Notes under the pieces: model-generated
What the model saw: the letters and a program-made list of their open reading frames with translations, nothing else
Told to the model about the DNA's origin: nothing
Database searches by the model: none
Program-made: the position numbers and the translations under genes
In this document: piece by piece, positions 140 to 13,797 of the stretch
Numbering within the stretch: the stretch's first letter is position 1
How the letters are laid out: every line of letters begins with the position of its first letter
Source of the DNA: a virus
DNA: 21,820 nucleotides
Virus record (IMG/VR): IMGVR_UViG_3300025151_008576
Span: 1 to 21,820 of that record
Direction: 5' to 3' (one strand)

Positions 140-745
140 TTAAGAGGCTGTTTGTGTTTTAAATATATCCATATTTCTTAAATCAGGCCAGTCTTCCCAT
201 TCCCATTTCCGAGGAGTCTTTTTTATGGCTCTCTCTATCTTATTAAGACCCTGTAATGCTGTCTCAGGTGTCATGTAGTAATGGTATCCCATCGTGGAAA
301 TATTTTGATCTCTCCAAGGTTTATCGGGGATTCTGCCATCATACGACATTTTCTTTAGCTCATCAGCCTCTTCCTTATCATCAGTCAGAATCATACCGCC
401 CCTGCCTAAGCTCAAATGTTTTTGAAACTGGAAACTTAAACACATTAAGGTTCCAGGAATGTAACCACCTTCTTTCCAATAAACAGCGGCATCAACAATG
501 TTAGTATTACCTATAAAATAATAATCTTTCCACTCTTTTGAATCCCAATGCCATTCGATTCCTAGCTTCTCACCTAAAAAGGGAATAGAGATATATGTAC
601 GAGTAGGAAAACTTACGTTATCAGCTTTGTGATAGCGTAAACATAACTCAATAGCGTGAGTGCAGCAATCCACTGCGACTGCATATTTTGCCCCGTAAAA
701 CCGAGCGATTGATTTTTCAAAGACCTCTACAACATCAAAATTCAT
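140..745 (-). CDS. Compact DegT/DnrJ/EryC1-type PLP-dependent aminotransferase-like protein
   Basis: The 201-residue product shows the DegT order of motifs: an N-terminal FEKSIARFYGAKYAVAV segment (9-25), a VDAA motif with Asp85 in the place of the PLP-ring aspartate, SFQFQKHLSLGRGG (104-117) with Lys109 as the probable Schiff-base lysine, and GYHYYMTPETALQGLNKIE as the counterpart of the GyNyRMsdlqAA segment. Family members usually aminate 4-keto sugars or act as sugar dehydratases and are about 370 residues long. This one stops shortly after the large domain and lacks most of the small C-terminal domain. I see no frameshift or leftover coding sequence downstream, so the short form looks natural. 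The start ATG overlaps the upstream methyltransferase stop as ATGA. With gmd next to it, a 4-keto sugar substrate is plausible but unproven. Confidence 0.8.
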   Translation of the reverse strand: MNFDVVEVFEKSIARFYGAKYAVAVDCCTHAIELCLRYHKADNVSFPTRTYISIPFLGEKLGIEWHWDSKEWKDYYFIGNTNIVDAAVYWKEGGYIPGTLMCLSFQFQKHLSLGRGGMILTDDKEEADELKKMSYDGRIPDKPWRDQNISTMGYHYYMTPETALQGLNKIERAIKKTPRKWEWEDWPDLRNMDIFKTQTAS

Positions 746-1269
746 TTTTTAGCCTCTACATTCAAACTTATTAAAATGCCGTGTTCTTTATCCATATGTG
801 GAATATATGCTTGGGAGTGATCGTCAAACTCTGCATGGTCGGTCTCTCTCCAGTCATACCTATTAACTGTTCTAAATCCAGATGCTTTTAGGAAGGTTTT
901 TAGGCTAGAAAAATCATACACCGTCTTATGATAAAAGGGAGGAGTTCCCATTTCACCATACAAGGGACCTAAAAACATACTAAGCGAGTAACCATTTTTA
1001 TACAAGTTACAAATCGCCGCAAAATCAGGGACAGCGAGCCTTAAGACACCTCCTGGCTTGAGGCATCGTCGCCACTCTTTAATAACAATTTCAGCCTCTT
1101 TCCTTGAGAAATATTCAAATAAGTGAGCAGCATAAATAACATCACAAGTATTATCAGCGAAAGGAAGAACTCTGACACTCTTATGGACTATATGATCATA
1201 ATCAGCTTGATCTATGTGAATCCAATCGGTCCCAAAATTTCTTTTACCGCAACCTAAATGCAACTTCAT
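742..1269 (-). CDS. Class I SAM-dependent methyltransferase
   Basis: The 175-residue product opens with LHLGCGKRNFGTDWIHID (3-20), the glycine-rich SAM-binding motif I and the acidic end of strand beta-2. It continues with LPFADNTCDVIYAAHLFEYF (motif II/III region) and LKPGGVLRLAVPD (about 75-87). This is the Methyltransf_11 layout used by many small methyltransferases in polysaccharide clusters. The acceptor cannot be read from the sequence. The setting between a cupin and a DegT-like gene suggests a sugar or a sugar-nucleotide intermediate. The start overlaps the cupin stop as ATGA, and its own stop overlaps the DegT start the same way. The family call is secure; the substrate is unknown. 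Confidence 0.88.
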   Translation of the reverse strand: MKLHLGCGKRNFGTDWIHIDQADYDHIVHKSVRVLPFADNTCDVIYAAHLFEYFSRKEAEIVIKEWRRCLKPGGVLRLAVPDFAAICNLYKNGYSLSMFLGPLYGEMGTPPFYHKTVYDFSSLKTFLKASGFRTVNRYDWRETDHAEFDDHSQAYIPHMDKEHGILISLNVEAKK

Positions 1270-1676
1270 AGAAATACCTTATCCATAGCCTGACCCTCGT
1301 AAGGACCAGTCTTATACTCATACACCAAGGTATCATCCTCTAGAATTTCATAGGTGTGACCTCCTTCTAAGGTAAAGGAAGAATCACCAGCGTTTAAGGT
1401 ATGAGTTTCTAGTAACTCTCCATCTATATCGTAAAAGAATACCTTTACGCTTCCTCGAATAACCACCCAACTCTCTTGCGCTATAACTCGTTTAACGCTT
1501 GGTGATTTCCAGATATGCTTATGTGGCTTAAAGGTCTGACCCTCATCCATTTTTAAGTAAGAACATTGAATGAATTGATCGGCATCAACTAATTCAGTCC
1601 TCTTTTCTGTGAACTCATCTGCTCGATATACCATATGAAGCAGAGCATCTTTTACTTTTGATTTTACTTTAATCAT
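1266..1676 (-). CDS. Small cupin-fold protein, WbuC-like
   Basis: The 136-residue product has a single cupin barrel. The first motif includes FKPHKH (49-54) and a downstream Glu68 in AQESWVVIRG. The second motif runs through LNAGDSSFTLEGGHTYEIL (94-112) with His107. His52, His54, Glu68 and His107 could make the usual metal site. Small cupins of this kind (WbuC family) occur in O-antigen and capsule clusters; some relatives are sugar-nucleotide epimerases or isomerases, and many have no known reaction. The start ATG directly follows the upstream deacetylase stop (TAA-ATG) and the stop overlaps the methyltransferase start. I assign the fold, not the reaction. Confidence 0.8.
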   Translation of the reverse strand: MIKVKSKVKDALLHMVYRADEFTEKRTELVDADQFIQCSYLKMDEGQTFKPHKHIWKSPSVKRVIAQESWVVIRGSVKVFFYDIDGELLETHTLNAGDSSFTLEGGHTYEILEDDTLVYEYKTGPYEGQAMDKVFL

Positions 1677-2309
1677 TTAATCTACCATCCATTTAACTAC
1701 CTGAAAAGCTTCAGCATATCTGCACCCTACTTCCATACCACTATTCTTATTTTTTGTGATGGCAAAATCAACCCAGTCTTCTCCTCTTCGGTCAACTTCA
1801 GTTTTGTGAGCTAAAATGCTTCTTCTTTTTATATCTATGTAATCAGAAATATCAATATAGAAATTATCTATAAACTCAGTTAAAGATTTATACCAATTAC
1901 TTCTGTACATTAAGATGCGAGGGCAATGCCTTGCTGCGTTTAAGCTCGCTTTACCTATAGCACTATGATCCTGGTGAACATCATGCTGCCAATGAGTTAT
2001 AACTGTATCAATATCCCACTCATTAATTAACTCATTTAAACGCTCTATTAAATCAACACCATATTCTACTTTTTTTGTTTCATACATTAAACAGCGAAGC
2101 TCTGTAACGCCTAAGACTTCTGCGGCTTCTTTGCCCTCTCGGTGAGCTTGATCTTTAGATCTTAATACAGTGCCATCAAAAGAAGAATAATCGCTCTCAG
2201 TAATAACCACTGAATAAACTTTATGGCCTTTCTCTAGATAACTAGCTATTGCCCCCGCACAGCCCAACTCAATATCATCGTAGTGGGCTCCTATCGCTAA
2301 AATGTTCAT
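1677..2309 (-). CDS. PIG-L/LmbE-family zinc-dependent deacetylase
   Basis: The 210-residue protein begins MNILAIGAHYDDIELGCAG, the PIG-L zinc motif with Tyr10 in place of the usual proline of AHPDDE. The second motif is HWQHDVHQDHSAIG (106-119), carrying Asp110, His112, Asp114 and His115. His9, Asp12 and His112 or His115 should hold the zinc. The family removes N-acetyl (or other acyl) groups from amino sugars, for example GlcNAc-PI, GlcNAc-inositol and bacillithiol or LPS intermediates. Length is normal. The start overlaps the DUF218-like stop as ATGA. With NeuB, NeuA and an ATP-grasp enzyme nearby, it may deacetylate an amino sugar or a nonulosonate precursor before re-acylation; that link is inference. 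Confidence 0.88.
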   Translation of the reverse strand: MNILAIGAHYDDIELGCAGAIASYLEKGHKVYSVVITESDYSSFDGTVLRSKDQAHREGKEAAEVLGVTELRCLMYETKKVEYGVDLIERLNELINEWDIDTVITHWQHDVHQDHSAIGKASLNAARHCPRILMYRSNWYKSLTEFIDNFYIDISDYIDIKRRSILAHKTEVDRRGEDWVDFAITKNKNSGMEVGCRYAEAFQVVKWMVD

Positions 2310-2824
2310 GTATATAATTTATGTTTTTTAAATATAGTGTTTTTTATTTCACTAAACTTATTATAGTCTACCCGATTAAATAGAGACAAAAATGACTGCA
2401 AACTATCTAGCTGGCCTCTAATGGCTGCTGGATCATTAAGTTTTTCAGTACGAACATAAGCATAATCAACAGAAACATCACTACCAAGAATGAAATCAAA
2501 AACGATCTTAGCTCGGTATTTTAAATGATAATCTGATGATACTACAGTAACCTTATCCCCTTCACATAAATACCTTTCTTTCAGATAGTAGGCTTCACCT
2601 ATCGTATCCTTACTTCTAGTCTGTAGCAAAATACGATCTGTGCGTGACATAAGATCATCATATTGATTCAAACGCATGGAAACTTCCAGGGACAGGGCTG
2701 CTTCACTATTGATAACAAGGTAAGCCTGTGGATCAGACAAGGCTATCTTTATGCCCACATCTAATCTATCGAAAAACTCAACCCCTAAATCTTTTTGAGA
2801 TAATACTGTTATGTAATGCTTCAT
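2306..2824 (-). CDS. DUF218/YdcF-like protein
   Basis: The 172-residue product carries a segment TRSKDTIGEAYYLKERYL (69-86) followed by KVTVVSSDYHLKYRAKIVF (91-109). This matches the pattern ExxSxNTxEN...VTSxxHxxRA of the DUF218 (YdcF/SanA/ElyC) fold. Known members affect envelope glycan or carrier-lipid steps or bind SAM, but biochemical roles are poorly defined. No signal peptide or membrane segment is visible, so it is probably cytosolic, unlike SanA or ElyC. Start and stop overlap both neighbours (TAATG upstream, ATGA downstream), so it is translated with the sugar genes. The fold call is moderate; no function is claimed. Confidence 0.65.
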   Translation of the reverse strand: MKHYITVLSQKDLGVEFFDRLDVGIKIALSDPQAYLVINSEAALSLEVSMRLNQYDDLMSRTDRILLQTRSKDTIGEAYYLKERYLCEGDKVTVVSSDYHLKYRAKIVFDFILGSDVSVDYAYVRTEKLNDPAAIRGQLDSLQSFLSLFNRVDYNKFSEIKNTIFKKHKLYT

Positions 2825-3729
2825 TAAATTTCAGAAAGAATCCTGTAAACGGTATCATCTTTATATTGTAAATCTCTTTCAGAGATTTTCTCATTAGTGG
2901 CAACAGAAAGAGATAGCGATGGAATATTAACACCATTGCATTTCGTAATGCTCAGGCTTCCTGCACACCTAGGATTAATTTCTAGCAACTTAAATTCGCC
3001 AAAATTATCCTGCTTAAATTGTATATTTATAGGCCCATAAAACTTTAAATTCTCTGTGATTCTTTCTACATACTGAACTAATTTATCGTTGTGTATACTC
3101 CTACCCACAGAACAGATGCCTCCCTTTGTCGCCATTCTAACTCTAGGGCATGCCACAACCAAACGTCCCTCAGAATCACACACAGCATCTACAGTAACTT
3201 CATCACCAGGTAAAAACTCCTGAATCAATAAACGATCTTTTTCTAACCCTCGCTCTTCAAACAATCCAATCACTAGATCTGCTTCTTCGACTGTACAAAC
3301 TTTAAATACATCTCTAGATCCACGCGACACAGAGGGACGAATGATTGCTGGGTAAGACTCTGGGTAGTTGGGTGTGGGTATAACTTTTTTTAAACGATTA
3401 ATAGTCTTTATCTTATCCAAACAAGTGCTAATGCTCTCGGAGTCCGAGATGATAGCCTGTGGTATTTTGTGCAAATTAGAGGCAAAAATAATTAGTTCTT
3501 CATCAACATTAGGGAAAATAAAATCAATCTTATTCTTATCAATTACAGAAGATACTGCCTCTAAGAACTTAGGATCTTGGGCAGGTGGAAGCACTACGCT
3601 CTCCTGTGCCAACCTTAACCCAGCAGCGTTTTTATCGCAATCAGCAGCAACAACATAGTGATCCTCACAAAGCGATCTGATTGTAGCGATACCAGAATCA
3701 CCCCCTGCCCCTGTAACTAAAATGTTCAA
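2824..3729 (-). CDS. ATP-grasp domain protein (carbamoyl-phosphate-synthase-like/PylC-like)
   Basis: The protein (about 301 residues) opens MNILVTGAGGDSGIATIRSL, the Rossmann-like pre-ATP-grasp domain. It then shows YPAIIRPSVSRGSRDVF (ATP lysine/glycine loop region, with Arg in place of the usual Lys), LIQEFLPGDEVTVDAVCD and FKLLEINPRCAGS (metal-binding Glu and Asn-Pro-Arg). ATP-grasp enzymes activate a carboxylate as acyl phosphate and couple it to an amine or thiol. Next to NeuB and near a deacetylase it could attach an amino-acid or acyl group to an amino sugar, which is inference. Start choice: a TTG at 3729 overlaps the NeuB stop as TTGA and has a GGAG five bases upstream. A GTG at 3741 would add four residues but lacks a ribosome site. 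Confidence 0.85.
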   Translation of the reverse strand: MNILVTGAGGDSGIATIRSLCEDHYVVAADCDKNAAGLRLAQESVVLPPAQDPKFLEAVSSVIDKNKIDFIFPNVDEELIIFASNLHKIPQAIISDSESISTCLDKIKTINRLKKVIPTPNYPESYPAIIRPSVSRGSRDVFKVCTVEEADLVIGLFEERGLEKDRLLIQEFLPGDEVTVDAVCDSEGRLVVACPRVRMATKGGICSVGRSIHNDKLVQYVERITENLKFYGPINIQFKQDNFGEFKLLEINPRCAGSLSITKCNGVNIPSLSLSVATNEKISERDLQYKDDTVYRILSEI

Positions 3730-4697
3730 GTCATCTCCCACTCTAAGATATCATTTATCTTTAAATCACACTTCAAAGTTCTACCTACTAAGTTACTCAG
3801 ATGTTTAGAATCAATCCCGCCTGGACTCTTTGTTTGCAAACAAATGAAATCATTATCTTTTATTAGATCACCCTGCTTAAGGTTTGTTCGGCTGATAAGT
3901 TTTCTTCTCTTTTGTGAAGCCATCATGCGCTCATCTAGGGATAAAGTCCTTGTATCAGACCCCAATAAAATCTCTGCCTCTCTTATTCGAGTCATCATCT
4001 CTTTAAGCATGGAAGGATCAACCCCAACCAAGTGATCAGCACCGTCTTGAGTCCTATCTAAAGTAAAATGCTTTTCAATTACGGTTGCCCCTAGAGTAAC
4101 TGCTAAAACTGGAGCCTCTACTCCAATCGTATGGTCTGAATAGCCCACCGTGTTGGAAAACTTTTTAAGATACTTAATATTATTTAAATTAGCATTTTCT
4201 ATTGGAGTGGGATACAACGAAGAACAGTGCATTAAGCATACTAGATGACCTAAACCACTTAGTAAATCTACAGCGTGTTGTATTTCTTCAGGTGTTGACA
4301 TACCAGTAGACAAGTAAACGGGCTTTCCTTTTTTAGAAACCTTTTTTAATAATCTGTCATAAACTAAATCTAAAGAAGATATTTTAAACGCATTTACCCC
4401 TATAGAATCTAATAAGTCTACAGAGTCTAGGCTTTCTGGGGTGGACAAGAAATGAATCCCGTACTCATCACAAAAACTTTTTATTTGCAGGTGTTCTTCT
4501 TTAGTTCTATGCAAAGACTCTAGCATCTTGAAATACGTTTTAGTATTATCATTTAATACCATTAAATCTTTAGCTACAATTGTCTGTATCTTGATGGCAT
4601 TAACACCGTTTTCTGAAGCTATTTTAATCATCTCTCTAGCTTCGTCCATCGAACTGTAAGTCCTGGCTATTTCTAAAATAACATATGTCTTATTCAT
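3726..4697 (-). CDS. neuB: NeuB-type nonulosonic acid (sialic-acid-like) synthase
   Basis: The 323-residue protein has the NeuB TIM barrel followed by a C-terminal SAF (antifreeze-like) domain. Visible motifs are IKIQT (36-40), FLSTPESL (83-90), FKISSLD (104-110), YLSTGMST (128-135), GYSDHTIG (185-192) and IEKHFTLDRTQDGADH (207-222). His189 and His210 are spaced like the two metal-binding histidines of meningococcal NeuB. The SAF part (about 265-323) contains GDLIKDNDF and LVGRTL. The family condenses PEP with an N-acetylhexosamine or bacillosamine derivative to make Neu5Ac, legionaminate or pseudaminate. The product cannot be told from the sequence. Odd: the normally conserved NHNG near residue 13 is replaced by RTYS. 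It overlaps the phosphatase gene by 8 bases. Confidence 0.92.
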   Translation of the reverse strand: MNKTYVILEIARTYSSMDEAREMIKIASENGVNAIKIQTIVAKDLMVLNDNTKTYFKMLESLHRTKEEHLQIKSFCDEYGIHFLSTPESLDSVDLLDSIGVNAFKISSLDLVYDRLLKKVSKKGKPVYLSTGMSTPEEIQHAVDLLSGLGHLVCLMHCSSLYPTPIENANLNNIKYLKKFSNTVGYSDHTIGVEAPVLAVTLGATVIEKHFTLDRTQDGADHLVGVDPSMLKEMMTRIREAEILLGSDTRTLSLDERMMASQKRRKLISRTNLKQGDLIKDNDFICLQTKSPGGIDSKHLSNLVGRTLKCDLKINDILEWEMT

Positions 4698-5172
4698 TTA
4701 TTGTCTCTAAGATTGTATCTATAGCCTCTCTAACAGCGCCATTCCCACCTAAGTTTTTCGTTACAAACCCACCGTAATTCGAACAGGTTACTTTTACTCT
4801 TGGTAGAGCATCTCCAACAGCAATAGGCAACGCAACTTTTTCTAATAAGGGGATATCATTAACATCGTCCCCAATAAAACAAAGCTCCGAGGCCATATCA
4901 ATCCCGTGCTTGTCGCAAAACTCCTGCGCTACCGAGATTTTATCATGACAGCGATAATAAACATCTGAAATTTTTAATTTACGGGCTCTATCAAATATTA
5001 ATCTCCACTCATCCGCAGTTGCAATGGCAAACTCTATGCCCTGCTTTTGAGCCAAATCAATCCCTTTACCATCACGAACAGAAAAGCTTTTAGCAATACC
5101 ATTATCAAAATAATATTTCTTGCCGTCTGTTAGCACTCCATCAACATCTAGTATTATCCCTTTGATTTTCAT
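4690..5172 (-). CDS. KdsC-like HAD phosphatase
   Basis: The 160-residue protein is a C0-type HAD phosphatase of the KdsC/NeuA-C-terminal family. It shows DVDGVLTDG (9-17) with nucleophile Asp9 and acid/base Asp11, VRDGKGIDLA (32-41), Thr52 as motif II, Lys78 (HDKI), GDDVNDIPLL (101-110) and a C-terminal GGNGAVREAID. Relatives dephosphorylate KDO-8-phosphate or 9-phospho-nonulosonates, as tetramers in the cytosol. Here it sits between NeuB and a radical SAM gene, so dephosphorylation of a nonulosonate 9-phosphate is the natural reading. The usual ISGR/ITGR after motif II is ATADEWR here, so substrate contacts may differ. The start overlaps the upstream radical SAM stop as ATGA. Confidence 0.88.
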   Translation of the reverse strand: MKIKGIILDVDGVLTDGKKYYFDNGIAKSFSVRDGKGIDLAQKQGIEFAIATADEWRLIFDRARKLKISDVYYRCHDKISVAQEFCDKHGIDMASELCFIGDDVNDIPLLEKVALPIAVGDALPRVKVTCSNYGGFVTKNLGGNGAVREAIDTILETINE

Positions 5173-6329
5173 GATTTCTTCTTTTTATTCTTAGAGGGGA
5201 GTAAAGCCCTTTTGCCTTTTTCTGGGTTATCAATACCTTCATACCATAGTTCTCCATCATCAGGCTTTTCTCTACCTCCCAAACGAGAAATGTTTGGATC
5301 TTGCCCAACATACTTCCGCAGCATTAAAGTACGATCTTCTAACTGAACAGGGTGATCCTCCATTAACCCGCCATGACAACAATCACCACACGATTCGAAC
5401 TTATCAAAAGCGGTCTTCGTTGCATGAGCTTCACGCAAAGCGGTCATCTTTTCACCTGTCCAAATAGAGGCTAAGGATTCTGTTTTTACATCTCCAATAA
5501 AATCCCTAGCAAGATAATCACTAACACAAGGGAAGACTTGCCCGTTATAACCTATAGTCATTCGCTGCCAAGGGGAAGGACAAACAAACTCAGGATCTCT
5601 AGGGAAGTTTCTCATGTCATCTGCTCTGTCCTCGTCGGCTATACAGTTAACTCTATGAACTAAAGGCTCCCAGAATTTAAAGAACTCTGCTGGATCATGT
5701 TCTATAGTAGAAAGGATTGTTTGAATTCTAATTAAAGGTTTTTTTAATCCCCGCTCCTCTCGGATTGAGTTAATCTTTTTAATCTTATCAACAAGATCAT
5801 AGAACTTGGCAGGATGCCTAATTCTGTTATAACTCTCCTCCATACCATCAACGGAGAAGCTAATCCAATCTAACCCTGAGTCTACAACTTCATGAAGGTC
5901 ATGATCATTCATACTCTCACCATTAGACAAAGTTGCTACATCCTTAATACCAGCAGCTTTAGCGTAGCGCACCATCTTCCAAATGCTTTTGTTTAGATGA
6001 GGCTCTCCTCTCCAACTTAGTTTAATAGAATATACTCCTTGCTTTGCGGCTTCATCAACAACTTTCTTAAACACCCACCAAGGCATGATGCCTTTAAGGT
6101 CTTCTGCCATGACTCCATTACCTGTAGGGCACATGGGGCATCTTAACTGACAGGCAGACGCTAACTCAACGTCTAAATGTGTTGGGAACGATGCTACCCT
6201 CTGGTACTTAGGAAAATAATGCCATTTAATCCTATCAATGGTATGAGCAATAATATTTCCTTGACCTAAGAAATATTTTAATCTACCCCACTTACTGGTC
6301 AGGGAAAAGTAATCTTTATTTGTCTTCAT
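5169..6329 (-). CDS. Radical SAM/SPASM-domain enzyme
   Basis: The 386-residue protein has the radical SAM cluster motif CxxxCxxC at Cys60, Cys64 and Cys67 (ACQLRCPMCPTG), a GEPHLN strand-2 motif (GEP-type) and the barrel segments LSNGESM and ISFSVDG. A SPASM-type C-terminal domain contains FVCPSPWQRM, YNGQVFPCVSD and FESCGDCCHGG, which can hold one or more auxiliary Fe-S clusters. It ends in a very lysine-rich tail. SPASM enzymes carry out oxidations, carbon-carbon bond formation or dehydrogenation, and similar genes are found in polysaccharide and nonulosonate islands without known reactions. It needs a low-potential electron donor; the ferredoxin at 17607-17861 is a candidate. It overlaps the NeuA gene by 14 bases, and the ribosome site is weak. 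The substrate is unknown. Confidence 0.9.
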   Translation of the reverse strand: MKTNKDYFSLTSKWGRLKYFLGQGNIIAHTIDRIKWHYFPKYQRVASFPTHLDVELASACQLRCPMCPTGNGVMAEDLKGIMPWWVFKKVVDEAAKQGVYSIKLSWRGEPHLNKSIWKMVRYAKAAGIKDVATLSNGESMNDHDLHEVVDSGLDWISFSVDGMEESYNRIRHPAKFYDLVDKIKKINSIREERGLKKPLIRIQTILSTIEHDPAEFFKFWEPLVHRVNCIADEDRADDMRNFPRDPEFVCPSPWQRMTIGYNGQVFPCVSDYLARDFIGDVKTESLASIWTGEKMTALREAHATKTAFDKFESCGDCCHGGLMEDHPVQLEDRTLMLRKYVGQDPNISRLGGREKPDDGELWYEGIDNPEKGKRALLPSKNKKKKS

Positions 6330-6993
6330 TTATTATCGTTTGCGCTAATAAAAAATCTAAGGGTTCGTCTATATCAACACCCTCTTTACTGCTTACTACT
6401 ACGCCTCCCCAGGAAGCATCATTTAGCGAAGTCTGCTTTATGATACACTTGGGAGTGGTCCCATATACTGCGCCTCGCATCATATAGGTGTCTGGGAGAT
6501 CTTGTCTCTGCTTAAATATATCATCAGAACTAATCACGGGCTTAACTTTATCGTCAACCAAAACTCTACACCTGTGAGGATGATCCCTTGTAGGAGATAA
6601 AGTTACTACCCAGTCTGACGAGCCCTCATGGACTTTTTTAATTACCTCATCAATAGTCTTTGATGATCTGAACGGGTAAGTAGGCTCCAAAATTAATACA
6701 ACATCATAGATAGATTCCATCTGACTCAATACATAATAGATCACATCAGGAATAAGTGGTGTTTGATCGTCTGCATAATTTTTGTCTCTTTGTTTCCAAG
6801 AAGCATTAAACTTTTCAGCAACAGCACCGATCTCAGGATCATCGGTAGACACAATGATATCAGTCACATACTCAGAATGTTGAGCAGCTTTAATCGTGTG
6901 AGCTATCAAAGGTAAACCACCCAAAACTTTTATATTTTTTCTAGGAATACCCTTTGATCCTCCTCTAGCAGGTATAATAGCAAGAACTTTCAT
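6316..6993 (-). CDS. neuA: NeuA-type CMP-nonulosonate cytidylyltransferase
   Basis: The 225-residue protein starts with the CTP-binding signature IIPARGGSKGIPRKNIK (6-22). It continues with GGLPLIAHTI, IIVSTDDPEI, ILEPTYPFRS (usually PTSPLR) and a closing GVDIDEPLDFLLA, which carries the Mg-binding aspartates. These are hallmarks of CMP-sialic/legionaminic/pseudaminic acid synthetases (NeuA, LegF, PseF). Length is that of a single-domain enzyme, and the phosphatase often fused to NeuA is encoded separately just downstream. It supplies the CMP-activated sugar for a glycosyltransferase, possibly the adjacent DUF115-like gene, whose stop overlaps this start as ATGA. CMP-KDO synthetase is less likely because of the IPRKN motif and the presence of NeuB. 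Confidence 0.92.
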   Translation of the reverse strand: MKVLAIIPARGGSKGIPRKNIKVLGGLPLIAHTIKAAQHSEYVTDIIVSTDDPEIGAVAEKFNASWKQRDKNYADDQTPLIPDVIYYVLSQMESIYDVVLILEPTYPFRSSKTIDEVIKKVHEGSSDWVVTLSPTRDHPHRCRVLVDDKVKPVISSDDIFKQRQDLPDTYMMRGAVYGTTPKCIIKQTSLNDASWGGVVVSSKEGVDIDEPLDFLLAQTIINEDK

Positions 6994-7763
6994 AGCTTAA
7001 TAACGGTCGCCCCTGCATCTGCAACAATACTATCCTCTTCGATACATTGTATCTCTACACCATATTGCTTGGCTTGTTCAAAAACGGATTTGAACTTACT
7101 TAAGGTAAGATCGTACTCTGTAAGAAACAGAGGCTCCTTGCCATTAGGATGGTACGCTTCTGGAAGGGACATAGGATCAATGTTGATATTAATAAAATCA
7201 TCAATGTCGCCATTCGCAAAATTGTCTGAAGCATACTTTTCCCTTAACTCTTGAATCTGTTCCCTTATTAAAGTGTTATATGGAGGAAACGAATAATAAT
7301 GATTAGCACTTCGATGATCAAAACCAAGATACACAATTTTCGCAGCACCCATTAAAACAGCTAAATGAGTGGCAGCAAACCCTATCTGTTCTGCACCTAT
7401 TATCCGTGTTTCATTTGTTACATTTCGTGTTAAATTGTCGTGAGTGGTTTTTACATTTTGTTGAGTTATTTGACAAATTTTATTCTGATTGCGTGTCTCA
7501 TTGTCGAGAAAAGGCTGCCCCTGGAAAAATCTGCACTCACAATCACCGAAAGACAAGTTAAACAACAAATGAACAAAATGTCCTGTCGAAAAATATGTTG
7601 TTTTTGGAAATGCTAGGTGACTCGCGTTAGTCCCTATGGAGATGCCATCGTTTATAGTTTGAATTTCATCATTCTTTAACTTACCGAGATGTGTGCCGTT
7701 TCCAATTATGTAAATGGTCTCACCTAAATGCTTATCTTTTATATCTGCTAAGTTTGTTATCAT
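6990..7763 (-). CDS. DUF115/MptE-like protein, possible nonulosonate (GT42-like) glycosyltransferase
   Basis: The product (257 residues from the ATG at 7763) starts with ETIYIIGNGTHLGKL, close to the GNGPSL nucleotide loop of DUF115 proteins and GT42 sialyltransferases. It has GISIGTNASHLAF and then TRIIGAEQIGFAATHLAVLM followed by GAAKIVYLGFDH, matching the second conserved block of DUF115 and the RITSG...IYLSGIDF block of GT42. The DUF115 fold is also the core of Maf flagellin nonulosonyltransferases. Lying directly beside NeuA, it is a reasonable candidate for using the CMP-sugar, but this is inference. Start choice: the ATG at 7763 overlaps the upstream stop as ATGA; an ATG at 7778 and a GTG at 7784 are also in frame. 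None has a good Shine-Dalgarno. Confidence 0.7.
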   Translation of the reverse strand: MITNLADIKDKHLGETIYIIGNGTHLGKLKNDEIQTINDGISIGTNASHLAFPKTTYFSTGHFVHLLFNLSFGDCECRFFQGQPFLDNETRNQNKICQITQQNVKTTHDNLTRNVTNETRIIGAEQIGFAATHLAVLMGAAKIVYLGFDHRSANHYYSFPPYNTLIREQIQELREKYASDNFANGDIDDFININIDPMSLPEAYHPNGKEPLFLTEYDLTLSKFKSVFEQAKQYGVEIQCIEEDSIVADAGATVIKL

Positions 7764-9262
7764 TTTTTTGTCCAGCATTCCCACACGAATGGATACGAAA
7801 ACTTTACTTTATGTGTCTCTGATAATCTCTCTAAAATTTTATCCCTTCGTAAAACAGGTGTTTCTCCGTAATAATGAAATTGAATTAAAAAAGTGTGTAC
7901 CTTCTCGACTAAATTAGCGTCCAACAACGACTCTAAAATATCAAATTCAGCCCCCTCCACATTCATTTGCATTAAATCAATAGGATCACCATTAACTGCA
8001 TCCCACTCCTCAAATACTTCAGTAATGTCTCGAACAGAGCAAGTTTGCTTATTTTCTCCCTTCATGATAAACGAAGATCCATCCTCTGAAACAGAAATAT
8101 CAAAGGTTCCGTTTTTGTTTCCTAACGCATAATTAAAAAACTTAACTTTATCAGAGGAATGCTTTAATGATCTATCGTAAAGCTCTTTAACAGGCTCAAA
8201 GCCATAACACTCACATCCATACTTTTCATTAATTTCTTTTGAGTACTCCCCAACATAAGATCCGATGTCCCACACGGTAGAATTGTTATGCAGGTGAGGC
8301 ATAAAAGATAATAACGTATCGCCTCCTGCCACAAAGAAAGCCTGTAAGTGTTTATCCTGTGTATGCCCATCAACATAAGTGCGGATGTCACGAACATGCA
8401 AATCCTCTGTAATGTTTTGATTGATTATCTTATCTTTAACTAGTACATTTTCAAAAATCCAGTCTTCTTGGGTATCATACTTCTTTACAAGTTTTTGATT
8501 CTCTTCTGCGTAAGGCAATAACTCAGCATATAGCTCAAGAGACAACGAATTTAAAATCTCATCTAAAGCCTCTAAGCTATCAAAAGTAAGGATGCCTTTA
8601 TCGTTAAAAAACGAACCTATATCGGTAGCTCCGTAGTAAATGGGTATTGTCCCCAAAGCCATACAATCCAGCAGCTTCTCACTAAAATAATAAGGGTTTT
8701 GCGTGTTTTCTATGACGATAGAAAACCTATAAGGAGACAGAGCCTCCTCCTTGGTATCGAAGGGCTTCCCTGCACCTGCGCCCCACAAATCTACGTCCGT
8801 AAACTTCTCAGCTATGCTGTGCCGCAATCTGTGTCCTGAAGCTTGCGTTTTATGGGAGTATATCATAGAAACCGATTTACTTTTTGAGGGGAACCCATAG
8901 TTGTCAGGCTCCACCCAGCAACCACCAAACGGGTAGAACTTCGTCTTCTCTGGGTACTTATCCAAAAGCTCTTTGTCATATGTTAGGAGAAAATCATAAT
9001 TGTCTATATACTTCTCTACATCAGTATAAATAGCGGGATTTGTTTCTCGCGTTTCAATTAAAAAACCTACATTAGTCCCAGGATGTTTTAAATGCTCTGA
9101 GGACATTAAGTAAGCATCGGTAAAAAGAGTGACTCCCTCCCAGCCAGAATCAACCTTAACATATCGAGTGTATCGAGGCTTCTTATTATCTGTCATTGAA
9201 TAGATGCCATCCTCAGTTTCTAAGTGAGCAAAAGACCTGTCACATAAGTTTATATCAATCAT
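7760..9262 (-). CDS. Two-domain protein: GT10-like fucosyltransferase fused to FkbM-family methyltransferase
   Basis: The 500-residue protein has two recognisable halves. The N-terminal half contains YRFSIVIENTQNPYYFSEK (178-196) and LLDCMALGTIPIYYG (197-211), the GDP-fucose-binding FxIxxEN...EK...G.xPxxxG signature of GT10 alpha-1,3/4-fucosyltransferases. The C-terminal half, from about 325, has VWDIGSYVGEYS (330-341), CYGFEPV and DLMQMNVEGAEFDILESLL (429-447), the SAM-binding and NVEGAE signatures of FkbM O-methyltransferases. A natural reading is addition of fucose, or another GDP-activated sugar, and methylation of a nearby hydroxyl by one polypeptide. No transmembrane segment is seen. 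The start overlaps the GT11 stop as ATGA, with a weak ribosome site, so it may rely on translational coupling. Confidence 0.88.
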   Translation of the reverse strand: MIDINLCDRSFAHLETEDGIYSMTDNKKPRYTRYVKVDSGWEGVTLFTDAYLMSSEHLKHPGTNVGFLIETRETNPAIYTDVEKYIDNYDFLLTYDKELLDKYPEKTKFYPFGGCWVEPDNYGFPSKSKSVSMIYSHKTQASGHRLRHSIAEKFTDVDLWGAGAGKPFDTKEEALSPYRFSIVIENTQNPYYFSEKLLDCMALGTIPIYYGATDIGSFFNDKGILTFDSLEALDEILNSLSLELYAELLPYAEENQKLVKKYDTQEDWIFENVLVKDKIINQNITEDLHVRDIRTYVDGHTQDKHLQAFFVAGGDTLLSFMPHLHNNSTVWDIGSYVGEYSKEINEKYGCECYGFEPVKELYDRSLKHSSDKVKFFNYALGNKNGTFDISVSEDGSSFIMKGENKQTCSVRDITEVFEEWDAVNGDPIDLMQMNVEGAEFDILESLLDANLVEKVHTFLIQFHYYGETPVLRRDKILERLSETHKVKFSYPFVWECWTKK

Positions 9263-10035
9263 ATTTTAATCCAATCTTCTGGGACGATATCACTATCGTT
9301 TAAGTTTTTATCAGGACCAAACCAGTTCTTAGGAGCCACTACCTTCTTGTCCTTTGATTTGTTCAACCATGCGCCCCACCAACTAAAAGAAGAGTTTGCG
9401 ATTATGTTATTATCACACAAAGACATCAACTTTAAATCACAAACATCACTTTGCTTCTCAACATACATGGCGTTAGGTAGTATTAAATTCTCTTTACACC
9501 AGCTTATGTCATCACTAAAAACTAGAATGGAATCAAAACCCCCTACCTCCTCCAAGGACTTAATGTAATACTCTTGCGGCTGGAGAGGGTGATGGTTTTG
9601 CAAATTAACATAGTCACCCCTACGAACATGTAACGATACTGTTTTAGTTTTTAATACGTCTTTATACTGAACCTCTGCTTCAGTTGAAAAATCAAAACAA
9701 TCTAAAATGTAATCTCTATTATGTTTAAAGTACTTCTCTGACTGAAAATACCCTCGATAGATACAATCCTCATAGTAAGGAAGCTCTTGATAATCAAAAC
9801 GCATTTCATTGCATTGTCTGGACAACTGAAGGCCCTCTGTGTAGGTGTTTACGCCACTCAAGATAGTGTCGTAATAGTTTCCAAAAGATGGGTCAAGCAG
9901 CATTGGAAAGGTAGCCGTATCATCATTATCTTTAGCTAAACTAAGAAGGGAGGCAATTTGAAATAACTGATTCCCTAGTCCATAATTATAGACTCCTCCT
10001 GGATTTCCTGGACCTAATAGATCACAGGTAATCAT
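9259..10035 (-). CDS. GT11-family alpha-1,2-fucosyltransferase
   Basis: The 258-residue protein has all three motifs of GT11: GLGNQLFQ (19-26), SLHVRRGDYV (136-145) with the GDP-fucose-binding HxRRGD, and NSSFSWWGAWLN (216-227). Bacterial members (for example FutC and WbsJ) transfer fucose from GDP-fucose in alpha-1,2 linkage to galactose. Length is slightly short for the family (usually 270-300). It overlaps GT25 upstream as TAATG and the GT10-FkbM gene downstream as ATGA. Its donor would come from gmd, which starts this phage's own route to GDP-fucose at 125, unless the host provides it. The linkage type is assumed from the family; the acceptor is unknown. Confidence 0.92.
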   Translation of the reverse strand: MITCDLLGPGNPGGVYNYGLGNQLFQIASLLSLAKDNDDTATFPMLLDPSFGNYYDTILSGVNTYTEGLQLSRQCNEMRFDYQELPYYEDCIYRGYFQSEKYFKHNRDYILDCFDFSTEAEVQYKDVLKTKTVSLHVRRGDYVNLQNHHPLQPQEYYIKSLEEVGGFDSILVFSDDISWCKENLILPNAMYVEKQSDVCDLKLMSLCDNNIIANSSFSWWGAWLNKSKDKKVVAPKNWFGPDKNLNDSDIVPEDWIKI

Positions 10036-10694
10036 TAATCTAAATCCTTCATTACGGCGTAGTTTGCCTCTTTGCCTGTGATGTCTGAATGAGACTCAAA
10101 TTGATGCAAGATGCGAGGATTGAAAATGTACAAAGGCTCCTCCATGCCTTGAAGATGAACATAAATCTCATCAATAACAAATAACCACTTGTTATCTTCT
10201 AGTAAGTCTAAGTTCTTTTTGATGTAGTCTAACTTTACAATGTAGCCGACAGTCGTTTTAGTAAAAGAGGTTTTACAAACATTAGCCATAGAAGTTGTAA
10301 CAGGTGGAGTTATATTGTTGCCTCCTAAATAACAAAAAGCATAGTCATCAGGAAGCTGTGAATAGTAATCCAAACATAAGGAGGTGAAATCAGAACAAGG
10401 CTCCGCATCATCCTCAAGAACTAGAATCTCTTTTTCTCCTTTTTCTATGGCTTGCTTCAGTAGTTCGATATGACTCAGGGTGCAAGCAATCGAATACTTA
10501 TTGTGATGCTGATCTCGATTCCAGGCGGGATGAACATTCTCTGGAAGCTCTAAAGTTTTCCCGTCTACCGCTGAAAACCTAGTAAGTTTCACTCCCATAT
10601 CATCGAATGATTTCTTTACTCTGTCCCAGCGATCTGATCTTCGATCTAGATTAATGCAATACACATTATCAAAAATATCATTTACGGTTTTCAT
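10035..10694 (-). CDS. GT25-family glycosyltransferase (LPS beta-1,4-galactosyltransferase type)
   Basis: The 219-residue protein shows the GT25 layout: VYCINLDRRSDRWDRVKKSF (11-30), FSAVDGKTL, SIACTLSHIELLKQAIEKG (68-86) and ILVLEDDAEP (90-99), where EDD is the metal-binding triad. GT25 enzymes transfer galactose or glucose in LPS and lipooligosaccharide outer cores, acting at the inner face of the membrane. It lacks a signal peptide. It sits between a sulfotransferase (ATGA overlap) and the GT11 fucosyltransferase (TAATG overlap). If it adds galactose, its product would be a typical GT11 acceptor, which is an inference from gene order only. Confidence 0.9.
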   Translation of the reverse strand: MKTVNDIFDNVYCINLDRRSDRWDRVKKSFDDMGVKLTRFSAVDGKTLELPENVHPAWNRDQHHNKYSIACTLSHIELLKQAIEKGEKEILVLEDDAEPCSDFTSLCLDYYSQLPDDYAFCYLGGNNITPPVTTSMANVCKTSFTKTTVGYIVKLDYIKKNLDLLEDNKWLFVIDEIYVHLQGMEEPLYIFNPRILHQFESHSDITGKEANYAVMKDLD

Positions 10695-11245
10695 ATGACA
10701 CCTACCTCGGAAATAAACTGTAAAATCCTACGATTATACTCTTTGGCAAGATTTACACCGTACTCTTTATACATTCCTATTGTATCCTTGTCTCGCCTGA
10801 CAAGGGAATCAGCAACGTCTTCTGGATCCCGAAACATACAAATGTAATGAGGATTATCTAGATGAGGGTGGAATAAGTCTAGAGTTAGACAAGACCTAGG
10901 ATCTTTCCATCCCCAAATTGCAGAACTTCTCTTTTTTACTAAAGCTTTAATATCGTCAGAGAACTGCGCCGAAACAGAAACAATCTCCTCCCTAGTTGGG
11001 GGCTTGAACCATGATCCTCCCGCTGCGGCTAAAATCCTTTCATTGAGTTGCATAAACTCATCATCCTCAAAATGACCTTGTGGGTTGGAGGCGTTGGCTA
11101 GTCCTAATTCTTCAGCATTCTCCAGCGCGTCTTCTAGCATGGTGGCCCCCATGGAAACCTTAGGGTCGTTATTAAAAGTATGAAGTGCTTTAGCCAGTAA
11201 GGAGGTTCCCGATCTGTGCATCCCTAAGACTACAAAGGTTTTCAC
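10691..11245 (-). CDS. PAPS-dependent carbohydrate sulfotransferase-like protein
   Basis: The 184-residue product begins MKTFVVLGMHRSGTSLLAKA. GMHRSGTS (8-15) is the 5'-phosphosulfate loop of PAPS sulfotransferases. The 3'-phosphate motif appears as YICMFRDPEDVADSLVRR, and IWGWKDPRSCLTL is also typical of this bacterial group. It would transfer sulfate from PAPS to a sugar hydroxyl, most likely in the cytosol. Start choice: a GTG at 11245 overlaps the upstream stop as GTGA and has AAGGAG six to seven bases in front. A longer frame from 11266 would add seven charged residues ahead of the nucleotide loop and has no support. No PAPS synthesis genes are seen, so the sulfate donor must come from the host. 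Confidence 0.87.
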   Translation of the reverse strand: MKTFVVLGMHRSGTSLLAKALHTFNNDPKVSMGATMLEDALENAEELGLANASNPQGHFEDDEFMQLNERILAAAGGSWFKPPTREEIVSVSAQFSDDIKALVKKRSSAIWGWKDPRSCLTLDLFHPHLDNPHYICMFRDPEDVADSLVRRDKDTIGMYKEYGVNLAKEYNRRILQFISEVGVI

Positions 11246-11985
11246 TCCCCTCTCCTTTTCTTCCACTCTTTTTGCATCCTATCTGCATTTTCGATAAGTA
11301 ACTCCTTCCCGTCTTTGGCAAACTTCCGCTTCATTTTCTTATAATCAACGTCCCAGTCAGTATCGTAGTCAGACTCTTTTAGTCGATCATCTAAGTGAAT
11401 ACCAAACTCACGAAGACAAACAACAGCCCTATCCAAAGTCCTAACTTGTTGAGTTATGTGAGCGTCTTCGTGACCATAACGACCGTAATCTTCACAGAAT
11501 ACTGTAATATTGTCTCTAACAAAACCGCCCCAGGTAGTGCAAGCCCCTCCAATCTGAGACGCAAGAAGAAAGTCTGGAACCTCTACATCCCGAACTTTTA
11601 TCCTGTCGATCAAACCTTGAACATTAACACAACACATCCCTACCTGACCAGCATATCTATCAAGAATATCGACCGACTTGTGTAGCCAGTCAACAGGTAG
11701 AAGTACATCGTTGTCAATGACGGTGCAGTAGTCATACTCCTTCTTCCTTAAAAAGGAATTAAGTCTCTTAGCCTTTCCTTCTGCTTCATCAAAATGAGTG
11801 AACTTTATTTTCTTACAAAACCCATGGGGCTCTAAAGATTCAAAGTATTCTTTGGTCCCGTCAGTCGATCCATCAGAAACAACCCACAAGGTAAAGTCCA
11901 TGCCAGCGTAATCAAAAATCTGCTCAAGCGTCTTCTTCGTTAATTTAAGTCTGTTGTGAACAGACATGATAATGTAATTTCTCAT
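11242..11985 (-). CDS. GT2-family glycosyltransferase
   Basis: The 247-residue protein has a GT-A fold signature. It opens with YIIMSVHNRLKLTKKTL, followed by WVVSDGSTDGTKEYF (34-48) and TVIDNDVLLP (88-97), where Asp91-Asn92-Asp93 is the DxD nucleotide-sugar and metal motif. A later YGRYGHEDAHITQQ segment resembles the ED acceptor-base motif. Family 2 enzymes are inverting transferases; the donor cannot be read. The C-terminus is rich in Lys and Arg, which may help peripheral membrane contact. The ATGA overlap upstream comes with a good Shine-Dalgarno (AGGAG) about nine bases before the ATG. The stop overlaps the GTG start of the sulfotransferase. Confidence 0.9.
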   Translation of the reverse strand: MRNYIIMSVHNRLKLTKKTLEQIFDYAGMDFTLWVVSDGSTDGTKEYFESLEPHGFCKKIKFTHFDEAEGKAKRLNSFLRKKEYDYCTVIDNDVLLPVDWLHKSVDILDRYAGQVGMCCVNVQGLIDRIKVRDVEVPDFLLASQIGGACTTWGGFVRDNITVFCEDYGRYGHEDAHITQQVRTLDRAVVCLREFGIHLDDRLKESDYDTDWDVDYKKMKRKFAKDGKELLIENADRMQKEWKKRRGE

Positions 11986-12593
11986 CTATGTACTCCTATT
12001 ATCTCAGCGCAATACTCAGGGTGGTAATCTTTACAAAACTCCTCGTACATTTTACCATCTGACTGCTCTTCTTTATTATACCACCCTCCTTTGGATAGCC
12101 ACAAAGATCTTTTCATAACCAACTGCATACAATCTATATTTTGAAAAATCGGAGGGTAACCATCAAGTAAGCAGCGGTGATTGTCCTCCCCAGTTCTTTG
12201 AATATACGGCCCAACCCTAATAGTGCCTTCTAGGATTGCAGGACTAATCAAAATGTCTCGTTCGCATAGAGCTAACGCCTCAAGGGCCTTGGGATACAGC
12301 AAATTATCAGGGTTAAAATGCACGATATATTCCCCTTTTGCCTCCCGTATTCCTAGATCCCTTAAGCTATGGCCCCAATCATTATATCTCTTTTTGGTGG
12401 CTCTGTAGCTGTATTTAAACGAGAATTTAGACAAGTCTGGAAGAGGTCTGTGGGTGGGTCCATCGTGATAGATTAACACCTCAAAGTCTTTATATGTGGA
12501 ATTATCTAAGGACTGCATCCCTTCCAGGAAAACCTCATCTGAGATAACCTCGTCGTAATGAGGGCAAATAATACTAAACTTATAATCAGTCAT
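11982..12593 (-). CDS. GT2-family glycosyltransferase (short, divergent)
   Basis: The 203-residue protein begins YKFSIICPHYDEVISDEVF, then VLIYHDGPTHRPLPDL (39-54) and EYIVHFNPDNLLYPKALEAL (88-107). The PDN of NPDN stands where the DxD of GT2 enzymes is expected, and FNPDNLLYP is common in phage and cyanobacterial GT2 proteins. The later ICxQxV-like part (QNIDCMQLVMKRSLWL) and GGWYN are also typical. It is short, near the minimum for a GT-A domain, so it may act with a partner such as the adjacent GT2. It overlaps the GT4 gene by eight bases and the next GT2 gene by four. Confidence 0.85.
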   Translation of the reverse strand: MTDYKFSIICPHYDEVISDEVFLEGMQSLDNSTYKDFEVLIYHDGPTHRPLPDLSKFSFKYSYRATKKRYNDWGHSLRDLGIREAKGEYIVHFNPDNLLYPKALEALALCERDILISPAILEGTIRVGPYIQRTGEDNHRCLLDGYPPIFQNIDCMQLVMKRSLWLSKGGWYNKEEQSDGKMYEEFCKDYHPEYCAEIIGVHR

Positions 12594-13797
12594 CTACAAC
12601 ACCCATGAGCTTAGTTATTTTCTCGTAGAGTTCTTTGTTGTTTTGAATCTGAAACGTATCCCTGTATAAACCTAATCTTTTTGAGGCTACTTTATTTAAA
12701 TCAAAGTACTCTTCAGTTAACGTGTGTAAGTTATTGCCCATAGACTCTCTATGATTTTTGTCTCTACAGACTTTAGTTAAAACTTTAACCCACTCACTCT
12801 TAGGGGCTTTTGGATCAATAAGGTATCCTGTTTTCCCATCAACAATAGTTTCATCGTAGCACCCTACGTTTGAAGCAATCAAAGGAACTTTATATCTGCC
12901 ACATTCAGCGACTTTAATTTCTGACTTAGAATCATTAAAATCATTCATTTGTAGAGGTGCAATTGCCACATCAATGTGAGCAAAAATTATGCCGTACATA
13001 TGTGTGGGAAGAGCCTCATGAATATACCAGTTCTTCTCTCCTCTAAATCCTTTTAGAAGTGTGTTTTTATAGTTTTTCCAAACCTCCAACTGCCAATCAT
13101 CCTTCTTGTCTCCCTCTGGTGGTTTTCCGAAAAAGTGCCACTCGACATTCTTAGCCCCAACCCTCTGATTAACGAAATGAGGAACTCCTGCAAACTCTTT
13201 TACATCCTCTTCGTGATGAATACCCCCTGCCCAACCAATTCGGACGGTACGCTTACTTCTTGGAGGAACCTTGGGGTGGTTCCAACCATCTAAGGTATAA
13301 TCAATGGCGTTTTTTACCACCGCCAGCACACCTCCGCAATACTCTTGTATTCTTTCAGCAAACTTTCTTTGAGTAACGGTAACTAGGTCAGAGTGATTAT
13401 AAACAAATTTAGTTGCATCAGATAATCCTTTATCTTCATAAACCTGCTTTAGTCGGTGACCTTCGTACAAGTTTGTTAATAGATCATCGGTGTCGTAATG
13501 AACAAATTTACCAAACTCTTTTGCTTTACCTATAATTCGAGCAGTATAATGACCGCCCCAGTTACAGATATTTTGCGTCATTACAACATCAGCCCACTTT
13601 AAGTTTTCAAACTCCCAATCCTCTTTCCATTGACCTGCCCTTTCGCCCTCCTCCTCGATACCTAGAGGATTTTTGTCAAACTTAACTTCAACAATATCAG
13701 GGTGCAACTCAGCCAACTTCTGGAAAGGATTCCAAGCTCTATAAAACGCACAACCGCCATCATTTGCGGGAACAACAAGTATCTTTAGTTTATCCAT
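12586..13797 (-). CDS. GT4-like (GT-B fold) glycosyltransferase, first gene of the glycan island
   Basis: The 403-residue protein begins KILVVPANDGGCAFYRAWNP, a variant of the GT-B N-terminal loop. It has FVHYDTDDLL (98-106), VVKNAIDY (159-166, the usual hinge N), IGWAGGIHHEEDV (186-198) and SEIKVAECGRYKVPLIASNV (291-310) followed by GCYDE, the C-terminal donor-sugar site with the E(x7)E-type region. It is therefore a GT4-like retaining transferase of unknown donor. The start ATG lies only six bases beyond the U-tract of a strong terminator, and no Shine-Dalgarno precedes it. How this gene is transcribed and translated is therefore unusual. It overlaps the next GT2 gene by eight bases. Confidence 0.88.
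   Translation of the reverse strand: MDKLKILVVPANDGGCAFYRAWNPFQKLAELHPDIVEVKFDKNPLGIEEEGERAGQWKEDWEFENLKWADVVMTQNICNWGGHYTARIIGKAKEFGKFVHYDTDDLLTNLYEGHRLKQVYEDKGLSDATKFVYNHSDLVTVTQRKFAERIQEYCGGVLAVVKNAIDYTLDGWNHPKVPPRSKRTVRIGWAGGIHHEEDVKEFAGVPHFVNQRVGAKNVEWHFFGKPPEGDKKDDWQLEVWKNYKNTLLKGFRGEKNWYIHEALPTHMYGIIFAHIDVAIAPLQMNDFNDSKSEIKVAECGRYKVPLIASNVGCYDETIVDGKTGYLIDPKAPKSEWVKVLTKVCRDKNHRESMGNNLHTLTEEYFDLNKVASKRLGLYRDTFQIQNNKELYEKITKLMGVVDD

Follow-up and report, generated by a model that had tools for sequence, protein, structure and literature searches.

In the 21.8-kb window examined here, a fragment of IMG/VR virus record IMGVR_UViG_3300025151_008576 (positions 1 to 21,820), a compact run of minus-strand genes very likely allows a phage to make and activate a sialic-acid-like sugar. 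The reading we favour, to which we assign a probability of roughly 60%, is a phage-borne and tailored cytidine monophosphate (CMP)-nonulosonate pathway, located in a hypervariable glycan island and including a radical oxidation or epimerisation as well as an exchange of N-acyl groups. At the level of gene families this reading is well supported, and an unusual nonulosonate product is probable on account of the association between a radical S-adenosylmethionine (SAM) enzyme and the NeuB synthase, rather than of the ATP-grasp gene that accompanies them. A broader proposal, to which we give slightly less than even odds, is that the phage has captured a conserved, apparently undescribed radical SAM step present in the nonulosonate biosynthesis of many bacterial phyla, in which oxidation or inversion of a sugar carbinol by a BtrN-like radical enzyme leads to a chemically unseen class of nonulosonate.

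Core enzymes of the cassette

The original prediction placed five genes of this pathway at 2824-6993; all five lie there, on the minus strand, and profile searches back the family of each. The cassette also extends into three genes of which that prediction made no use, encoding a WbuC cupin, a methyltransferase and a short DegT-like protein (mini-DegT). In order of transcription the genes are as follows.

6316-6993, minus strand: NeuA-like CMP-nonulosonate cytidylyltransferase (CTP_transf_3, 7.1e-23; PseF-type, 5.7e-36; IPARGGSKGIPRKN signature)
5169-6329, minus strand: twitch-type radical SAM enzyme, proposed BtrN-like oxidoreductase or epimerase (PF04055, 6.7e-12; PF13186, 2.2e-13)
4690-5172, minus strand: KdsC/YrbI-type haloacid dehalogenase (HAD) phosphatase, proposed nonulosonate-9-phosphate phosphatase (TIGR01670)
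3726-4697, minus strand: NeuB-family nonulosonate synthase with an altered SAF (antifreeze-like) region (PF03102, 4e-72)
2824-3741, minus strand: carbamoyl-phosphate-synthase-like ATP-grasp ligase, proposed N-acyl or aminoacyl ligase (PF15632, 6.2e-27; PylC-like N domain)
2306-2824, minus strand: DUF218 (YdcF-like) protein (PF02698, 2.4e-6, barely above the gathering score)
1677-2309, minus strand: PIG-L/LmbE-family N-deacetylase, two genes downstream of the ATP-grasp gene (PF02585, 4.5e-23)
1266-1676, minus strand: WbuC-family cupin (TIGR04366, 47.9 bits, above the cut-off of 42)
742-1269, minus strand: SAM-dependent methyltransferase (PF08241, 1.3e-10)
140-745, minus strand: short phage-type DegT/AHBA aminotransferase-like protein of 201 residues, with the pyridoxal phosphate (PLP)-lysine region LSFQFQKHLSLGRGG kept (PF01041, 2.4e-17)

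From NeuA through PIG-L successive genes overlap by 14, 4, 8, 16, 1 and 4 bp, an arrangement that looks like a single transcription unit, and the run goes on with no gap as far as the mini-DegT.

The combination of a NeuB-family synthase retaining the phosphoenolpyruvate- (PEP) and metal-site motifs KIQT, SDHT and EKHFT with a NeuA-type cytidylyltransferase points to CMP-nonulosonate biosynthesis, and gene-family evidence likewise supports the earlier view that NeuB, the phosphatase and NeuA are its end steps. The synthase matches the NnaB (2.8e-76) and PseI (1.4e-62) profiles, each under the equivalog cut-off; with 256.7 bits against a cut-off of 399.65, it falls outside the NnaB equivalog of N-acetylneuraminic acid (Neu5Ac) synthases. 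An arginine in the antifreeze domain of NeuB touches the N-acetyl group of N-acetylmannosamine, and this residue, kept in 40 of 50 aligned NeuBs, is replaced in the window by Ser291. The substrate may thus be one without the standard N-acetyl group, a suggestion of small weight because viral NeuBs often show the same change.

The KdsC-like phosphatase, which carries the motifs DVDGVLTDG and GDDVND, exceeds the TIGR01670 cut-off (129.8 against 106.95 bits), matches the structures 2p9j, KdsC and 3e81, and scores 105 bits against the model for ketodeoxynonulosonic acid (KDN)-9-phosphate phosphatase (cut-off 180). As the 9-deoxy routes to legionaminic and pseudaminic acid leave no phosphate to remove, a phosphatase of this type fits a 9-phosphate product. 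In the NeuA-like protein, which scores 124 bits against the PseF-type model (cut-off 206) compared with 54 bits for KdsB, the IPARGGSKGIPRKN signature and a C-terminal VDIDEPLDF align with the solved CMP-Neu5Ac synthetases 6ifd and 1eyr. A Kdo pathway was rejected, given that the synthase is NeuB with no KdsA present and that the cytidylyltransferase is closer to PseF and NeuA than to KdsB. No LegB/PseB 4,6-dehydratase, full-length aminotransferase or PseG-like hydrolase is found in the window, whose contig ends inside the island; the reported absence of hexose precursor enzymes thus holds for this fragment only. It is plausible that the substrate is taken from the host, and precursor genes may also lie past the incomplete contig end.

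The radical SAM enzyme and its association with NeuB

The second gene of the cassette had been described as a radical SAM/SPASM enzyme, of which the first half stands: its CxxxCxxC SAM-cluster site (C60/C64/C67) is invariant, placing it in the radical SAM superfamily. The SPASM motif is defined by seven cysteines (CX9-15GX4C, gap, CX2CX5CX3C, gap, C) (PMC6231123), a pattern that the protein does not display. Its only conserved auxiliary cysteines are C250, C268, C314 and C317, which are invariant and spaced as in BtrN; under the published definitions of the twitch domain, with one fully ligated cluster (PMC6231123, PMC9012708), the enzyme is therefore twitch-type rather than full SPASM, with a single fully Cys-ligated auxiliary cluster predicted. 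A profile built from 30 clade and near-clade sequences returned BtrN as its first match in the PDB at 2.5e-25 (second match, 6e-15), and BtrN was also the top PDB match of the predicted model (predicted local distance difference test (pLDDT) score 86; E=1.5e-12; template modelling (TM) score 0.75, normalised on BtrN). In BtrN, which turns an aminocyclitol alcohol into a ketone, every ligand of the auxiliary cluster is a cysteine (PMC9012708, PMC6231123), and by analogy the window enzyme would oxidise or epimerise a sugar carbinol. A role as a maturase of ribosomally synthesised and post-translationally modified peptides was rejected, as no precursor peptide gene was noticed and every close relative lies near NeuB.

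The first full-length relatives, at 35% identity, were located on rhizobial replicons beside LegB, NeuB, SpsF, PseG, WbqC and PIG-L. Scanning 84,980 genomes yielded 60 loci, to which samples of two phyla added more, and a tree of 58 non-redundant rows places the window in a 17-row clade (SH-aLRT 99) comprising itself and 16 bacterial members, with NeuB no more than 8 kb away in all 17. These loci include representatives of Rhizobiaceae, Herbaspirillum, Bradyrhizobium, Rhodospirillaceae, Nitrospinales, Omnitrophota and Melainabacteria. NeuB was nearby in 16/16 rows scoring at least 190 bits, compared with 10 of the 21 scorable rows below 150 bits (Fisher p=0.0006, indicative only, the rows being related by descent). 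In the NeuB tree, the NeuBs paired with the clade are spread over several lineages, an argument for a functional link through a pairing remade repeatedly and not just inherited; both trees derive from quick searches and contain long branches, and their precise branching order should not be relied on. Among the clade loci are compact Omnitrophota operons (for example PIG-L, NeuA, radical SAM, WbqC, NeuB) and a rhizobial locus where LegB exceeds its NCBIfam cut-off and is accompanied by SpsF and a PseG-like protein. A limited literature search found no paper joining radical SAM enzymes to nonulosonic or legionaminic acid, an absence that is not proof, and enzymes of this clade probably perform an undescribed step in nonulosonate biosynthesis. 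Outside the clade, the Brachyspira hyodysenteriae plasmid pBHWA1 carries several radical SAM/SPASM genes among sugar genes of lipopolysaccharide type.

Partner genes and the hypervariable island

The radical SAM and ATP-grasp genes had been expected to recur with NeuB elsewhere, a forecast that held for the former (NeuB near 16/16 bacterial clade members), extended to PIG-L (12/16 loci) and failed for the ATP-grasp gene. Neither an ATP-grasp gene, sought with a 26-sequence hidden Markov model, nor KdsC was detected at any of the clade's 16 bacterial loci. The order of the five genes is thus not conserved, the ATP-grasp enzyme was rejected as a fixed partner, and both genes are additions specific to the phage cassette. 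Among 18 wider ATP-grasp loci, NeuB is adjacent in one and within 8 kb in one, while several contain an SpsF-like gene. WbqC is present in 13 of the 16 bacterial loci and absent from the window; that the ATP-grasp enzyme stands in for it in acyl exchange is a guess.

The PIG-L protein retains both zinc motifs, AHxDD and HxDH, as AHYDDIELG and HQDH (alignment with L006 and L007). It is 44-46% identical to proteins of rhizobial NeuB/radical SAM loci, 49% to that of L133 and 50-52% to those of two viral contigs. The deacetylate-then-acylate sequence proposed earlier is compatible with the genes as a putative route. The two viral contigs (L072 and L073, approximately 9150-13150) encode a PseB/CapD-like short-chain dehydrogenase/reductase (SDR), PIG-L, WbqC and GDP-mannose dehydratase/fucose-synthase-like proteins, with no NeuB in that stretch, and the PIG-L/WbqC pair is consequently not exclusive to nonulosonates.

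The mini-DegT belongs to a phage family of DegT-like proteins of approximately 200 residues, about half the usual length, that retain the PLP-lysine region. Besides the window (140-745), members occur in L091 (9004-9591), L092 (9001-9591), L303 (minus strand, 5915-6514), L297, L300, L301 and L305. Full-length relatives with 58% identity occur in a 642-kb phage and in Synechococcus phage S-SCSM2R. In the window and in L303 the gene lies close to a WbuC cupin, the L303 copy of which is 76% identical to that of the window. In S-SCSM2R (L091, 9004-12671) a radical SAM gene comes directly after it, with an annotated inosamine amidinotransferase three genes further along; the stretch resembles a cyanophage decoration pathway of aminocyclitol type. 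In a relative's island (L294, 4669-10647) we read a NeuA-like cytidylyltransferase, a cupin, an SDR, a dehydroquinate-synthase-like protein and a class III aminotransferase, possibly a cyclitol pathway.

Upstream of NeuA, the same island contains further candidate transferases.

6990-7784, minus strand: MptE/DUF115- or CST-like protein, a weak candidate nonulosonate transferase (phrog_4603, 7.8e-5, partial)
7760-13797, minus strand: glycosyltransferases (GT10-FkbM fusion, GT11, GT25, two GT2, GT4) and a sulfotransferase (Pfam)

For the first of these, the partial match is to an alpha-2,3-sialyltransferase family and the MptE-like match stands at 0.019, both weak; its predicted fold (pLDDT 34) was unusable and discarded, and a profile comparison with the rhizobial DUF115 protein covered only 33 columns at a probability of 11%. 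The fusion (7760-9262) is a single 500-residue protein joining a GT10-like domain to an FkbM methyltransferase.

In total the minus-strand glycan genes occupy approximately 13 kb, left of phage replication genes (SbcC-like, ribonucleotide reductase, DnaB-like helicase and gp32-like protein), and the position 1 end of the window falls inside this island, which is thus incomplete on the contig. Using the ribonucleotide reductase at 80-88% identity, we retrieved 80 viral contigs, most of which run SbcC, reductase, Zn-ribbon, helicase, gp32 and, where long enough, GT4; the contig under study represents a fragment from an uncultured, widespread group of phages. GT4 (12586-13797) marks the left border of the island and is conserved there in related contigs; past it the contigs diverge, and several relatives also display a conserved right border. 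Across the window and 15 relatives (L294-L308), 140 of 190 island genes (74%) are without a homolog of at least 50% identity in any other contig. Given this turnover past GT4, the nonulosonate cassette is one variant of a swapped glycan island. NeuB was not found in 45 related records of the phage group, all of them fragments, and single-protein scans of viral contigs with NeuB, the radical SAM enzyme, the ATP-grasp enzyme and DUF115 gave no matches, viral relatives being recovered only with alignments or the conserved reductase as query.

Proposed pathway, alternatives and known systems

In the pathway we propose, NeuB would join PEP to a host-derived 6-phosphorylated hexose or hexosamine, giving a nonulosonate-9-phosphate from which the KdsC-like enzyme would take off the phosphate, before NeuA converts the acid to its CMP form. 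The twitch radical SAM enzyme would abstract hydrogen from a hydroxyl-bearing carbon of the sugar, oxidising or inverting it, with possible later amination of the oxidised carbon by mini-DegT. PIG-L would strip an N-acetyl group, the ATP-grasp enzyme may add another acyl or aminoacyl group, and island transferases would place the sugar onto a glycan.

Several points weigh against this pathway. Sequence similarity among SPASM and twitch proteins is a poor guide to fold or reaction type (PMC6231123). The NeuB, without its antifreeze-domain arginine and with other changes (N13T), possibly has reduced or altered activity. Many bacterial clade loci carry LegB-like genes, in which case the phage radical step would sit in a different backbone pathway. 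To these are added the absence, even with profile searches, of ATP-grasp and KdsC from the bacterial loci, and the other partners of mini-DegT in related islands, which leave its link to the radical SAM enzyme weak.

The alternative that survives best, and which we nevertheless consider unlikely, is an ordinary Neu5Ac- or KDN-like CMP-nonulosonate pathway, with the radical SAM, PIG-L and ATP-grasp enzymes acting on other sugars of the glycan and their operon position reflecting nothing more than the packing of modules. Modules of the island do come from many sources, PIG-L and WbqC occur without NeuB in L072 and L073, and polysaccharide loci such as that of the Brachyspira plasmid commonly encode radical SAM/SPASM proteins from other clades; however, chance packing sits poorly with a radical SAM clade found near NeuB in every row, across phyla and unrelated NeuB lineages, and with a window gene placed between NeuA and KdsC in overlapping reading frames. 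Still less probable is a role in precursor building, whereby the radical SAM dehydrogenase and mini-DegT convert a hexosamine-6-phosphate to a 2,4-diamino hexose and NeuB then forms a 9-hydroxy diamino nonulosonate with no need of the 4,6-dehydratase route. Butirosin biosynthesis couples alcohol oxidation by a radical SAM enzyme with aminotransferase steps, a pairing that favours such a role, as do the BtrN-type match, the lack of LegB/PseB in the fragment, a phosphatase consistent with a 9-phosphate and the mini-DegT adjoining a different radical SAM gene in S-SCSM2R; yet many bacterial members keep LegB, an existing route to a 4-keto sugar, and mini-DegT has approximately half the normal length and the WbuC cupin as its partner rather than this radical SAM enzyme. 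Decaying or non-functional cargo, at which the departures of NeuB from conserved positions and the short mini-DegT might hint, is very improbable for ten intact and nearly all overlapping frames with catalytic motifs and seven cysteines intact in a compact phage genome.

Nonulosonates influence the recognition of bacteria by phages, plants and animals, and to our knowledge all chemistry so far known to tailor them is of the ordinary dehydratase, transferase or SDR kind. From a radical enzyme that accompanies NeuB in different phyla, new sugar structures can be predicted, and its gene provides a marker for finding them. Furthermore, this phage group exchanges entire pathways for de novo sugar synthesis at a single locus, with implications for virion glycosylation, for receptor change and for escape from host recognition.

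Together with the legionaminic and pseudaminic acid pathways (LegB/C/H/G/I/F and PseB/C/H/G/I/F) the tailored CMP-nonulosonate pathway shares a NeuB-family synthase and a CMP-transferase, whereas the window lacks the dehydratase, full-length aminotransferase and hydrolase and adds KdsC, radical SAM, PIG-L and ATP-grasp genes. The Neu5Ac-9-phosphate/KDN-9-phosphate route (a NANS-type synthase and HAD phosphatase, as in Bacteroides) likewise clusters synthase, KdsC-type phosphatase and CMP-transferase and requires no precursor dehydratase, but the window differs in its 105-bit phosphatase score to the KDN-9-phosphate model, in a NeuB without the usual arginine and in additional tailoring genes. 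BtrN has the same three plus four cysteines with matching spacing and is the best PDB match, although identity is approximately 16%, and the window enzyme is extended at its N terminus, where R33/W36 are conserved, and has NeuB instead of aminocyclitol genes as its neighbour. Finally, EpaA/EpaB provide a precedent for phage genes that tailor a nonulosonate, converting pseudaminic to 8-epipseudaminic acid in Acinetobacter; unlike the window, they consist of an SDR and a cytidylyltransferase-reductase acting on a host-made nonulosonate, with neither radical SAM nor NeuB (PMC12053666).

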